NCBI GenBank assembly: GCA_951802195.1
Contig: OX637624.1
Span: forward strand, 1,411,656 to 1,475,655
Origin: Tausonia pullulans
Taxonomy: Eukaryota; Basidiomycota; Tremellomycetes; Cystofilobasidiales; Mrakiaceae
Reading direction: 5' to 3'
DNA: 64,000 nt
The notes below the pieces were generated by a model. It saw nothing but the letters and a program-made list of their open reading frames with translations. It ran no database searches and was not told the origin of the DNA. How positions within the stretch are numbered: position 1 is the stretch's first letter; every line of letters starts with the position of its first letter. Shown piece by piece: positions 51,566 through 64,000 of this stretch. Both the position numbers and the translations under genes were made by a program.

Positions 51566-51604
51566 GCGCACACGCTTCCCCTGGTCGCCGCCACGCCCTT
51601 TCTT

Positions 51605-52779: not shown

Positions 52780-54110
52780 ATGGCCTTCTCCCTCCTCCCC
52801 CGACGAGCTGCCGCCTGCTCGTTGCGCACCTCGTCATGCGCCAGCGTCCGCGCCTTCAGCACTCCCGTCAACGACTCGTTCGACCCCATCACCGCCTCGC
52901 CGTCGCCGCCGCCAGAAGCTGGCACCGGCGGCAACGCCATGCGTAACGCTGTCAATGCCACCGCGCCCCGCTACGACTGGACCAGAGATGAGATCCGCGA
53001 GATCTACAACACGCCTCTCATGGAGCTGGCCTTCCAATCTGTACGCCTGTCGCCTGTCTCATGACAATCACAAGCACACTTGCTGACGAGCATGGGTTGC
53101 TCTAGGCCACATTGCACCGCCGCTTCCACCGGACGTCCGCCATCCAGATGTGCACCCTCATGAACATCAAGACGGGTGGCTGCAGTGAAGACTGCTCCTA
53201 CTGCTCTCAATCCTCTCGCCACAACACCGGCCTCAAGGCCACCAAGATGTCTCCCGTCGACGAGGTGCTCAACGCCGCCCGCATCGCCAAGGGCAACGGC
53301 AGCACGCGATTCTGCATGGGCGCTGCGTGGCGCGACATGCGCGGCCGAAAGACCAGCCTCAAGAACGTCAAGGCCATGGTGTCGGGCATCCGTGAGATGG
53401 ACATGGAAGTCTGCGTCACCCTAGGCATGATCGACCAAGACCAAGCTGAAGACCTCGCCTCGGCCGGCCTGACCGCCTACAACCACAACCTCGATACTTC
53501 GCGCGAGTACTACCCAAGCGTCATCACCACCCGTACCTACGACGAGCGCATCTCGACGCTGAGCAACGTGCGCAAGGCTGGCATCAACGTGTGCTCTGGC
53601 GGAATCTTGGGTCTGGGCGAGAAGCCCGAGGATCACGTGGGTCTTATCCACACCGTTTCCACGCTCCCTGAGCACCCGGAGTCCTTCCCCGTCAATGCCT
53701 TGGTGCCTATCAAGGGCACACCGCTGGGCGACAAGCTGCCGGCCGGAAAGCGTCCTATCCCCTTTGACGCCATCCTCCGCACCATCGCTACCGCACGTCT
53801 CACCATGCCGGCGACCATTATCCGCATCGCCGCCGGTCGCACCACCATGAGCGAGGCCGAGCAGATCTTGTGCTTCTCCGCCGGCGCCAACGCCGTCTTC
53901 ACTGGCGAGAAGATGTTGACGACCGACGCCGTGGGCTGGGACGCCGACAGGGAAATGTTCGCCAAGTACGGCCTCGTACCCATGAAGAGCTTTGAGCGGG
54001 GCGGGCTGCGCGAGACCAAGTGGTCGCAGATCACAGCCAAAGTGAATGACGAGTTTGCCCCGCCCGCCGAGGCTGCTGCTCCGGCTTCTCCCTCTGCTCA
54101 GAGTGTGTGA
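52780..54110 (+). CDS. BIO2: Biotin synthase (radical SAM), mitochondrial
   Basis: Two exons with one short intron (about 53041-53105). The enzyme inserts sulfur into dethiobiotin, the last step of biotin synthesis. The N-terminus (MAFSLLPRRAAACSLR...VRAFS) is Arg/Ser-rich like a mitochondrial presequence. The radical-SAM cluster motif CxxxCxxC is in TGGCSEDCSYCSQSSRH. Family motifs follow: FCMGAAWRD, MEVCVTLGMID, AYNHNLDTSREYYP, TTRTYDERISTL, NVCSGGILGLGE, FPVNALVPIKGTPL, and TIIRIAAGRTTMSE, which carries the Arg that helps bind the [2Fe-2S] cluster, then CFSAGANAVFTGEKMLTT. All key residues are intact, so it should be functional. It has far fewer introns than the left-hand genes and lies between LTR copies, which raises possible transfer. 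No BIO1/3/4 homolog is in the window. Confidence 0.95.
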
Positions 54111-54781: not shown

Positions 54782-55239
54782 TGTTAGGATTGGCCCAAGG
54801 GTCAATGGCAGAGAAGATTGGGCGAGGAGAGGGGCGTTGTTGACGAAGTGTACTGAGAGCGGAGGTGGGTGATGAGATGGGACTGAAGTGGCGGAGGTGA
54901 CACGGGCTCGCTTAAGGGTCTTGGGCAAGTTTGTCGGGTCCAAATGATAGTCAGAGTGCAGAACAAACCTACGATGAAATGAGCGTTTTATGGATCAGGG
55001 GTAAGAACAAGGGAGGGGATGAGAAGTGCGAGAACGCAAAGAGTGTAGGACAGATGATGAAATAAAAGAGAAGAAAGCGCAATGAGACAAGGAGCGTGAG
55101 CCAATGTGGCGAAAGAATGGTCCAAGATGAGGGAATGTGGAGCAAGCAAGGGAAAGGCAGGCGCAGAGCTGAGGTGGCAAGTCTGCGAGATCCTGACACC
55201 GGCGCAGAGCTGAGGTGGCAAGTCCGCGAGATCCTGACA
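54782..55239 (+). mobile_element. solo LTR, young 458-bp copy (copy 7)
   Basis: Starts TGTTAGGATTGGCCC and ends GAGATCCTGACA. By eye it differs from copy 9 (60560-61017) only near the 3' end, so both are recent. Its last part carries a tandem duplication of about 40 bp (gcgcagagctgaggtggcaa occurs twice, at 55150 and 55202). No target duplication is present (cttcg on the left, tgaca on the right). Confidence 0.85.
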
Positions 55240-60513: not shown

Positions 60514-62030
60514 TAGCCTGCAACAGACAACTTGATCCTATCGCCCGTCAAAGCCGACATGTTAGGATTGGCCCAAGGGTCAATGGCAGAGAAGATTGGG
60601 CGAGGAGAGGGGCGTTGTTGACGAAGTGTACTGAGAGCGGAGGTGGGTGATGAGATGGGACTGAAGTGGCGGAGGTGACACGGGCTCGCTTAAGGGTCTT
60701 GGGCAAGTTTGTCGGGTCCAAATGATAGTCAGAGTGCAGAACAAACCTACGATGAAATGAGCGTTTTATGGATCAGGGGTAAGAACAAGGGAGGGGATGA
60801 GAAGTGCGAGAACGCAAAGAGTGTAGGACAGATGATGAAATAAAAGAGAAGAAAGCGCAATGAGACAAGGAGCGTGAGCCAATGTGGCGAAAGAATGGTC
60901 CAAGATGAGGGAATGTGGAGCAAGCAAGGGAAAGGCAGGCGCAGAGCTGAGGTGGCAAGTCTGCGAGATCCTGACACCGGCGCAGAGCTGAGGTGGCAAG
61001 TCCGCGAGATCTTGACACGACATCTGCTTTGCACTGGAGCGCGCCATCTTCATCGCGTTTGAGAGCGACCGGAGAAAGGGCAAGGTATTTCTCAGCATCG
61101 AAGGAAGACTTCGAGGAGAGGGTCATTGGGCATTCCTTTGTCAAGGAAGAGAAGGAGGTGCCGTCGGACAACAATATCTAAGACCTCTTGAACTCCCATC
61201 AGCGCGCTCTCCACTTCTCGCCACGCGTTCAAGAACTTCGACTCGCAATCAGAGTGTCACTCCTCCTCTCTCAAAATATGACTACGTCTACTCCCATCAG
61301 TGCAAAACCTACCATCTCGCGTCGCATCCCTCCGACCAGTCAGGCGACGTCTCCTACGGCATCATGGCGACGCTCGCCTCCACAGGAGAAGTAGTCGGTA
61401 TGGCCAAGCGGTTCGCTCCCGTCGATCTCACAGCGACTGAGGATGTGCTGACGAAAGCTGAGAAGCTAGATGAGAAGAAGGCTAAGAGGGTCACGGACAA
61501 GGCGGGACGGAGAGAAGGGGAGTAATGCACACATAGACGAGAATTCTTCAAGATGGGTGTTTTAACCTCGAGATAATTGAGAGAATTCTGACAGGACCCT
61601 TCTCTACGCTAGAGCTTCGTCCGCGAGATGAAGAAGCGTTAACACGGGGATGCTCCAGGCCGGGCCGTGTGGAATCTCGTCCGCACGCCGCTCACACCAC
61701 TGGCTTGTATATGCTCCTGGCCCTCGTTTCGCGCTTCTAAGAGACTTTATACGGGGACCTCAGGTTCTCAAGTTTCGGTACAGGAAAAAAAGACTCACCC
61801 GGGGGGAGGGTTGCCAAGTCAACGTGCTTCCTTCGTCCGCCATTAGTGAGATCTCCCGCGCCGACATCAGCTCGTACTATCTTCACCAACCTAATGCCGA
61901 GTCAGTTGGTCTCCTTTGCTACCTGAAGTTCAGCATCCCCAGCCTCGCGTCCAGAGCGCCATGGATTCGCGTTGTCGGCTGAACGGAGCTCGGGCCTGAC
62001 ACGCCGCGAGCAAGTCTAAAGGATGCTCCT
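60514..62030 (+). pseudogene. GNAT acetyltransferase pseudogene disrupted by a solo LTR
   Basis: A third paralog of the flanking GNAT genes, non-functional. The exon-1 remnant reads ILSPVKA (60535-60555). It is cut by the LTR at 60560-61017 and resumes ICFALERAIFIAFESD (about 61023), aligning with VLSPIDPSTDWPALSRINVR of copy B; one CGACA lies on each side. No start codon is evident. Exon 2 remnants are YDYVYSHQCKTYHLASHPSD (61276) and MATLASTGEVVGMAKR (61363), then a Lys/Glu-rich insert ending at a stop at 61523. Next comes REMKKR followed by an in-frame TAA (61640), then AVWNLV, and near 61903 LLCYLKFSIPSLAS with a further stop near 61980. The Q-x3-G-x-G acetyl-CoA motif is not found. Confidence 0.8.
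60560..61017 (+). mobile_element. solo LTR with 5-bp target duplication CGACA (copy 9)
   Basis: A 458-bp copy, TGTTAGGATTGGCCC to GAGATCTTGACA, flanked by CGACA at 60555-60559 and 61018-61022. It is nearly identical to copy 7, including the ~40-bp tandem duplication at its 3' end. It lies within exon 1 of the GNAT pseudogene in the same orientation. No retrotransposon coding sequence is next to it. Confidence 0.92.
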
Positions 62031-62393: not shown

Positions 62394-63460
62394 ATGTCCT
62401 CTCGCCCAGAAGTCGTACTCTCCCCTATTGACCCGTCTACCGACTGGCCTGCGCTCTCTCGGATAAACGTCCGGGCTTTCGACGAAGACCCAGCGATTGG
62501 CCTGAGGGCATTTCCGAAGGACCTGAGACCAAGCTTTGAGGAGAGGGTTGGTAAGTATCGACGAGAAGCGTCGACCAGCGCGCGCTTCTTCTCTCGTTCA
62601 CCCTTCAACCCGAAATTCTGAACGTCCTACACACGCTCCCGATCAGACAACTACGCCTACCTCAAGCACCGTGAAGAAGCCTATTTTGCCTCGCGTCCCT
62701 TTGGCCCTCCGCGCGACGTGACGCACACGATCAAGGCTACACTCGCGTCTTCGGGCGAGATTGTTGGCCTGGCCAAGTGGGTCGTTCTCACCGATCGAAC
62801 AGAGACCAAGGGCGAATTGACGGCGGAGGAGAAGAAGCAGGAGGAGGCGGCGAGCAAGGTCGAGGAAGAGAGAAAGGAGCCGAGGGAGAAAGAGGTCGAG
62901 GCGCTCATGGATTGCGAGTTCCTCAAGGTCAGCCTTCTTGTGTGAACTTGGAACATACATCGGCGATGTACTGACCATCCATCTCAGGAGTTCGAGGGCG
63001 AGATGAAGAAGCGCCTCAAAGAGGTCTTCCAGGGCAAGCCGTGCTGGTATCTTGTACGTCGACTCACTCGACATATCTGGCGATGCCGCGCTGATGGAAG
63101 TCTATGGCGATGATTTGCACAGAAACTCATTTACGTGGACCCTCAGTACCAGGGTACTGGCATCGGAAAGGCCCTCATCGCATGGGGAACAAACCAGGTC
63201 AGTTAACAACGAAACATCGCTTCCTATGCCATCGCTGATCATTCCCGTCCCTCATCTACATGTGTCTTATCCAGGCCGATGTTAGCTCGCTCCCGTGCTA
63301 CCTCGAAGCCAGTCCCGCGGGCCAGCCCGTGTACGAGCGTTTAGGCTTCAACGCCGTCGGCTGGTCCGATCTGCCTGGGTCGAAGCGCGAGCAGGACCGC
63401 GGGACGCCGGCGGCTGAGGTGCTGAGGTGGCCTTACATGGTTAGGGAGCCGAGGAAGTAG
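62394..63460 (+). CDS. GNAT-family N-acetyltransferase (copy B)
   Basis: Spliced CDS, paralog of the gene at 58916. Start MSSRPEVVLSPIDPSTDWPA; exon 1 ends LRPSFEERV at about 62549. Exon 2 gives DNYAYLKHREEAYFASRP and THTIKATLASSGEIVGLAKW, the charged insert EEKKQEEAASKVEEERKEP, then EFEGEMKKRLKEVFQGKPCW. The acetyl-CoA motif is KLIYVDPQYQGTGIGKALI. The end is ADVSSLPCYLEASPAG, VYERLGFNAVGWSDLPG, VLRWPYMVREPRK. All core motifs are intact. It is the last gene before the right-end tandem array, about 300 bp away. The substrate cannot be inferred; similar fungal proteins are annotated only as GNAT acetyltransferases. Confidence 0.87.
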
Positions 63461-63764
63461 GAGCGGCGTCCCGAGGGAAGATGATGAAATTACAGACGCG
63501 TGGGCAGCGAAAGTGGGATAAACCCAGCGGCGAAGGTAACTTTCATGACGGTCATGCCGGGCACTGGAGAATTCCGTCGTCGACAATCTCGTGGTAGCTA
63601 TCGAGTTGGCCAATGCGAATATATTGACGTCGAAATGTGAGGCCCCCCTTTGGGTTGTAAACTGGGCTTTCTCGTGGATCAGAACGACTGCCGAGGGTGA
63701 GGGCCATGCGCACGGCTTGGATCGGCGCGTTGTCCCTCGCTCTTCCCCTCGCTTACTCCGTTAT
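63461..63764. other. spacer between last gene and terminal array
   Basis: 304 bp with no gene or LTR sequence recognised. The junction to the array is abrupt, after ...ctccgttat. Confidence 0.6.
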
Positions 63765-64000
63765 GGTTGGGTCGGTAGGTTGGGTCGGTAGGTTGGGTCG
63801 GTAGGTTGGGTCGGTAGGTTGGGTCGGTAGGTTGGGTCGGTAGGTTGGGTCGGTAGGTTGGGTCGGTAGGTTGGGTCGGTAGGTTGGGTCGGTAGGTTGG
63901 GTCGGTAGGTTGGGTCGGTAGGTTGGGTCGGTAGGTTGGGTCGGTAGGTTGGGTCGGTAGGTTGGGTCGGTAGGTTGGGTCGGTAGGTTGGGTCGGTAGG
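63765..64000 (+). repeat. perfect 13-bp tandem array, candidate telomere
   Basis: The unit GGTTGGGTCGGTA repeats head to tail without a single mismatch that I can see for 236 bp (18 full copies plus 2 bases) to the last base of the window. The plus strand is G-rich, so the G-strand runs 5' to 3' towards the right end, as on a chromosome terminus. Each unit has four G-runs of two or three (GG-TT-GGG-TC-GG-TA-GG with the next unit), so it could form two-tetrad G-quadruplexes. It is not the TTAGGG type common in basidiomycetes. A plain minisatellite remains possible. Confidence 0.9.

Follow-up and report, generated by a model that had tools for sequence, protein, structure and literature searches.

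The array that closes the right end of the window analysed here, a 64,000-nucleotide stretch of DNA from Tausonia pullulans, is very probably a functional telomere. It appears to be the product of a basidiomycete telomerase that adds the 13-nt unit GGTTGGGTCGGTA instead of TTAGGG, with a template inferred to lie on another contig, C3. In most lineages telomere sequence hardly evolves, since telomerase RNA and the telomere binders have to change in concert. To our knowledge, rapid telomere change is known chiefly from Saccharomycotina. The telomere reading, first advanced in an annotation made from the window alone, is supported as a whole by the genome-wide distribution of the unit, the absence of TTAGGG arrays and the presence of a telomerase reverse transcriptase (TERT) gene; the template remains a candidate.

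The window corresponds to C5:1411656-1475655. Its last position is also the last of contig C5 (length 1475655), and in the assembly the array therefore stops at the contig end, with no unique DNA to its right. The 18 perfect copies of a G-rich 13-mer originally described there, with the G-strand outward, were recovered by TRF at 63765-64000 (period 13, 18.2 copies of GGTTGGGTCGGTA, 100% matches). A search of the window with up to two mismatches returned 18 exact copies and zero further matches, and 100 shuffles of the window gave a mean of 1.16 matches and a maximum of 4 at the same tolerance. The features of this end are as follows.

62640..63461, + strand: last gene before the probable telomere, a spliced GNAT acetyltransferase (exon joins guessed), from Pfam
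63752..63764, no strand: junction between non-repeat DNA and the array, which begins GGTTGGG (phase 0), the commonest start register (10/33 by script)
63765..64000, + strand: array of 18.2 perfect GGTTGGGTCGGTA units, very probably telomeric, whose G-strand runs outward (5'->3') as far as the contig end, from TRF and exact-copy search

The GNAT gene matches Acetyltransf_10 (1.8e-9), Acetyltransf_7 (2.1e-9) and Acetyltransf_1 (7.5e-8). The subtelomeric neighbourhood proposed by the first-pass annotation stands in part, as regards this last gene and the dispersed repeats of about 300 nt. The dispersed repeat, at least 300 nt long, occurs in two identical copies at window positions 54782-55081 and 60560-60859, each followed by a 41-nt tandem pair (55160 and 60938), and diverged partial copies lie at 51604 and 58054.

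The assembly holds 23,855,473 bases in 21 contigs, of which C1-C20 are nuclear and C21 is mitochondrial, and the 6 kb at either end of each nuclear contig were examined (40 nuclear ends). An exact two-unit pattern matched the assembly 245 times in the forward and 207 times in the reverse orientation, and its reversed-pattern control 0 times. All 452 matches lie within the terminal 300 bases of contig ends with the G-strand outward. Arrays are present at 33 of the 40 nuclear ends, every one G-strand outward, and at both ends of 13 of the 20 nuclear contigs. The unit is thus not limited to one locus, and the expectation that it caps many contig ends in this orientation is borne out. At seven ends no array is read: C3 left, C5 left, C8 right, C9 right, C11 left, C17 left and C20 left. 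The last two consist of N over at least 6 kb from the contig start; in the other five, the final 330 nt contain no tandem array by eye, and a retroelement frame was read by eye at C9 right and C11 left.

Three copies of TTAGGG, with up to one mismatch, were sought in the whole assembly and gave 0 matches. The canonical basidiomycete telomere is therefore absent from the assembly by this search, and TTAGGG-type repeats were found at no other end. Within the 33 arrays, GGGTTA and TTAGGG likewise occur 0 times. The non-canonical character first assigned to the repeat consequently extends from the window to the genome, and projects that count TTAGGG would score the Tausonia pullulans assembly as telomere-less. 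Four interstitial telomeric runs of 22-25 nt were also seen (C1:2168229-2168252, C7:8049-8072, C7:5003-5024 and C16:796815-796839), each less than 10 kb from a contig end; they are possible break-repair scars or old ends.

The 33 arrays measure 152-278 nt (median 215) and contain 509 perfect units in total. By eye, the non-repeat flanks adjoining them differ from end to end, with those of C16 left and C20 right alike, and 27 of the 40 end segments have at least 300 bp in common with another end, as subtelomeric DNA. The registers in which the arrays start (n = 33) are non-uniform (Monte Carlo p 3.3e-4): ten begin at phase 0 and seven at phase 12, both into GGTTGGG, four at phase 6 (GTCGGTA), and the remaining 12 are scattered over nine phases. 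These are script figures, and for C2 right, C3 right and C17 right script and hand reading of the start differ. The script started these three arrays late and left their first slips uncounted; by eye, two of those slips leave GTCGGT and one GGGT.

Register breaks number 39 in all. Seven lie at most 15 nt from a contig tip and were left out as probable sequence noise; 32 sit more than 15 nt from it. Of these 32 slips, the inner 110 nt of the arrays (3,630 bases) account for 31, and a single one lies in the 3,164 bases farther out. A faithful telomerase that keeps renewing the outer array confines variants to the inner array, so this is the pattern expected of a telomerase-made telomere: the distal part is renewed and the variants are proximal. 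The perfect homogeneity noted at the outset accordingly holds for the window array, which has zero slips, but not genome-wide. Three of the 32 slips are not GGT-to-GGT and were excluded from the donor count. The other 29 leave at GTCGGT (18), AGGT (6) or GGGT (5), an uneven use of donor registers (chi-square p 0.0045, slips within one end being possibly non-independent). At equal step size, 18 slips lead out of the GTCGGT register and 3 into it (p 0.0015).

The TERT gene was located through a PF12009 match at C11:1159315-1159581. A hand-spliced model has its first 21 exons open and its last exons out of frame. Pfam assigns to it Telomerase_RBD (2.3e-38) and RVT_1 (3.6e-11), and a TEN domain scores 4.4e-4, under its Pfam cut-off. 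The segments KVDVRSCFDTM, QKSGIPQGSNLS and LVDDFLLVT, recognized by eye, are what we take to be the reverse-transcriptase motifs of TERT. A homologue search with the model at E 0.001 returned nothing. Searches for Pot1 and TRF with PF02765 and PF08558 gave zero matches in the genome and in the controls alike, so that nothing follows from them, and the Myb profile matched the assembly 12 times. Two of the Myb matches sit inside one 191-codon frame at C8:54208-54549 (- strand), a layout that Tay1-type telomere-binding proteins with tandem Myb domains also have.

Non-array copies of the complement of the unit were sought with anchor searches that cover all registers for runs of at least 17 nt and miss sites where the repeat continues at bases 7 and 9 upstream, by estimate about 1/16 of sites. 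The outstanding interior complement is ACCTACCGACCCAACCTACCGAC, 23 nt at C3:504267-504289, 504 kb from one contig end. A complement of at least 1.5 units, which the first-pass annotation had proposed to look for, is thus present deep inside a contig. With 251,300 bases as training set, a Markov background of order four predicts 1.4e-5 chance runs of 23 nt per genome; for runs of 18 nt the figure is 0.013, and for runs of 15 nt it is 0.73. As a template candidate the site reads 5'-ACCUACCGACCCAACCUACCGAC-3'. It is longer than the unit (13 + 10 nt) and has direct repeats at its ends, with ACCUACCGAC flanking CCA. It begins 5 nt past the stop codon of an open frame that spans 275 codons between stops (1160-1987 of the C3 segment examined) and has no match in Pfam. 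C3:504267-504289 is likely to mark the telomerase RNA gene.

The C3 candidate stays a prediction because the pseudoknot, the P6.1 hairpin and the Sm site were not found. Neither an AAUUUUU Sm site nor a strict P6.1-like hairpin occurs in 1.5 kb at the locus, and these motifs may differ in this lineage; at +102, one 15-mer lies within four mismatches of Ustilago P6.1, where a hand estimate expects about 0.17 by chance. A pseudoknot search of 500 nt with preset thresholds on this single sequence found none, a weak test in which 1 of 60 shuffles had one. The locus has no match to an Rfam telomerase family up to E 1, and 601 nt fold no better than shuffles (z 0.18). The 60 nt directly 5' of the template form an 11-bp helix that ends 1 nt from it (z -2.97; -2.58 for 54 nt, and -1.46 with five template bases added). 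Plain shuffles matched the energy of this helix in 50 of 2000 cases and its energy and position in 16 of 2000. Among random 60-mers of the window, 554 of 2000 are as stable and 269 of 2000 also end within 1 nt, and the helix is unremarkable against the genome background. A hairpin at the 5' edge of the template, UGGGU..ACCUA, was rejected, since 1097 of 3000 shuffled flanks equal it.

If RNA from C3:504267-504289 carries the template, as we infer, the part mainly copied would be the final 19 nt of the site, ACCGACCCAACCUACCGAC, which amount to 13 + 6. A template boundary before ACCGAC would make the product end in GTCGGT. This end could then slide back and pair with the 3' ACCGAC, upon which 13 nt more would be added. 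Occasional re-pairing of GGT alone at another ACC may produce the short and long units of the inner arrays. The GTCGGT boundary of such a template predicts the asymmetry of 18 against 3 slips, and GTCGGT, the product register of the model, is the donor register of most GGT-to-GGT slips (18/29). Initiation at the 3' end of the template does not explain why phase 0 is the commonest register in which arrays begin.

It is considerably less likely that the telomere is made by telomerase with the C3 site being an insertion scar and the true RNA gene lying elsewhere, at C5:945350 or in a stretch of N. A 23-nt scar at C3 is conceivable in view of the four interstitial runs of similar length (22-25 nt); these, however, all lie less than 10 kb from a contig end, whereas the C3 site is 504 kb in. 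The N of at least 6 kb with which C17 and C20 start could hold a gene, and C5:945350, the second-best interior site, offers a complement of its own, CCCAACCTACCGACCCAA, 18 nt or 13 + 5. That site sits in about 1.4 kb of seemingly non-coding DNA; read by eye, the gene on one side resembles C1-tetrahydrofolate synthase, and the convergent one on the other side is PPR-like. The chance expectation of the 18-mer, 0.013, is low, but that of the 23-mer is lower by a factor of about 900. The slip register also agrees with C3 and not with C5: a template at C5:945350 predicts departure after GGTTGGG, which is absent from the slips, and on this count it was rejected. Folding at the C5 site is not exceptional (z -0.25; 5' flank z -0.49), and Sm and P6.1 motifs are missing there too. 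Three shorter complements were rejected as templates, as runs of at least 15 nt are expected 0.73 times by chance: C2:1336748 (16 nt, adjoining a tRNA), C4:1243442 and C6:1238119 (15 nt each).

It is very improbable that the arrays are a minisatellite of subtelomeric DNA which recombination or gene conversion has spread, the true terminal repeats being missing from the assembly. Contig ends do exchange DNA, as the segments shared by 27 of the 40 show, and GGT microhomologies such as those at the slips are usable by replication slippage too. Symmetric slippage, however, does not account for 18 slips against 3, TTAGGG in three copies is absent, and the arrays of 33 ends, differing in start register, are all terminal and outward without one internal exact two-unit copy. 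An assembly artefact or contaminant contigs can practically be dismissed: the arrays are short and narrow in length (152-278 nt), as an assembler might impose, and some tips are irregular in sequence (C4 right, C8 left), but 13 of the 20 nuclear contigs have arrays at both ends, slips vary among ends, and so, by eye, do the flanks except for C16 left and C20 right.

Placement of the organism was drawn from C21, a compact contig of 18,821 bases with both rRNAs and many tRNAs, as expected of a mitochondrial genome. Its cytochrome b is at most 67% identical to any of the best 120 matches listed. Ten of these carry an organism name, nine being basidiomycetes and one Penicillium (52%); identities include 63% to Puccinia horiana, 64% to Parajaminaea, 61% to Tilletia and 62% to Cutaneotrichosporon. 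Because the named matches are mostly basidiomycete, the organism was taken as a basidiomycete. No close named relative is among the matches listed, which by protein identity points to a poorly sampled lineage.

Basidiomycete telomeres are described as predominantly TTAGGG in the available portions of two sources (PMC12506658; PMC6410037), and a third, likewise available in part, gives mostly TTAGGG for 21 basidiomycetes, with named variants of 5-8 nt (PMC10100673). For example, partial texts assign TTAGGG to Rhodotorula taiwanensis, R. pacifica and Microbotryum. In Rhodotorula babjevae, telomeres are predicted in the text available, which does not name their motif; none is given for R. toruloides either, nor in the accessible parts of PMC4101874 and PMC12133305, and PMC12093110 does not mention telomeres. 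The text of the TeloBase paper does not mention basidiomycetes. The system described here shares with Ustilago, R. taiwanensis, R. pacifica and Microbotryum short G-rich outward repeats and a TERT with RBD and RT domains. It differs from these TTAGGG basidiomycetes in its 13-nt unit and in the absence of TTAGGG and GGGTTA from 33 arrays. Departures from TTAGGG within the phylum are also recorded, in sources seen in part, for Malassezia (TTAGTG, TTAGGA and TTAAGTG, traced to the template; PMC12506658), Hericium (TTGGA) and Agaricus (TTAGGGGG) (PMC10100673). In contrast to those units, which in the parts available are 5-8 nt long and near TTAGGG, the present one is longer and no simple edit of TTAGGG.

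Long units and templates with direct repeats at their ends are found in Saccharomycotina, with 13 nt in Torulaspora, 23 nt in Candida and 28 nt in Tetrapisispora, according to partial text. The annealing part would be 6 to 10 nt at the C3 candidate, compared with 1-10 nt in the portion available on Saccharomycetaceae (PMC8211666). The yeasts belong to another phylum, whereas cytochrome b groups the present organism with basidiomycetes. In Ustilago maydis, the text available places ter1 within the transcript of UMAG_03168 (UmEmi1), and the C3 candidate likewise lies directly downstream of a same-strand open frame. That frame has no Pfam match, and the resemblance noted is one of arrangement; the AAUUUUU Sm site and P6.1 of Ustilaginales were not found in the 1.5 kb at C3. 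One full permutation of the 13-nt motif was searched in the open-access literature and was unreported there, an earlier report elsewhere being possible, and of 29 papers matching one of six 11-mers from the unit or its complement, none of the 20 listed is telomere-related by title. A telomerase-type telomere of 13 nt without GGGTTA is a new variation in a phylum reported as TTAGGG or close variants.

Ustilago Tay1 and Trf2 strongly prefer GGGTTA, according to the available part of the source. With that site absent, the duplex telomere-binding protein would also have had to change or be replaced. The balance tips slightly towards a combined history in which the template was independently rebuilt to a GGGTTA-less unit of 13 nt, the duplex binder was changed or replaced, and the telomerase RNA lies closely downstream of a coding frame. 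If true, this would parallel, outside ascomycete yeasts, the change that Saccharomycotina underwent with Rap1, and would be a further instance of the mRNA-linked telomerase RNA known from Ustilago. A basidiomycete whose 13-nt unit lacks GGGTTA supplies a second, independent case for asking how telomerase RNA and binding proteins changed; its chromosomes are nearly complete, the slip record is readable at each end, and the candidate template site can be put to the test.

The window also holds a biotin synthase gene 10 kb from the telomere, at 53112-54110 (+ strand), open over 332 codons in a single frame. Its product is 89-90% identical to the enzymes of the Dothideomycetes Meristemomyces, Friedmanniomyces and Elasticomyces, which suggests a probable fungus-to-fungus gene transfer into this basidiomycete genome, and a metagenome protein 100% identical to it exists.
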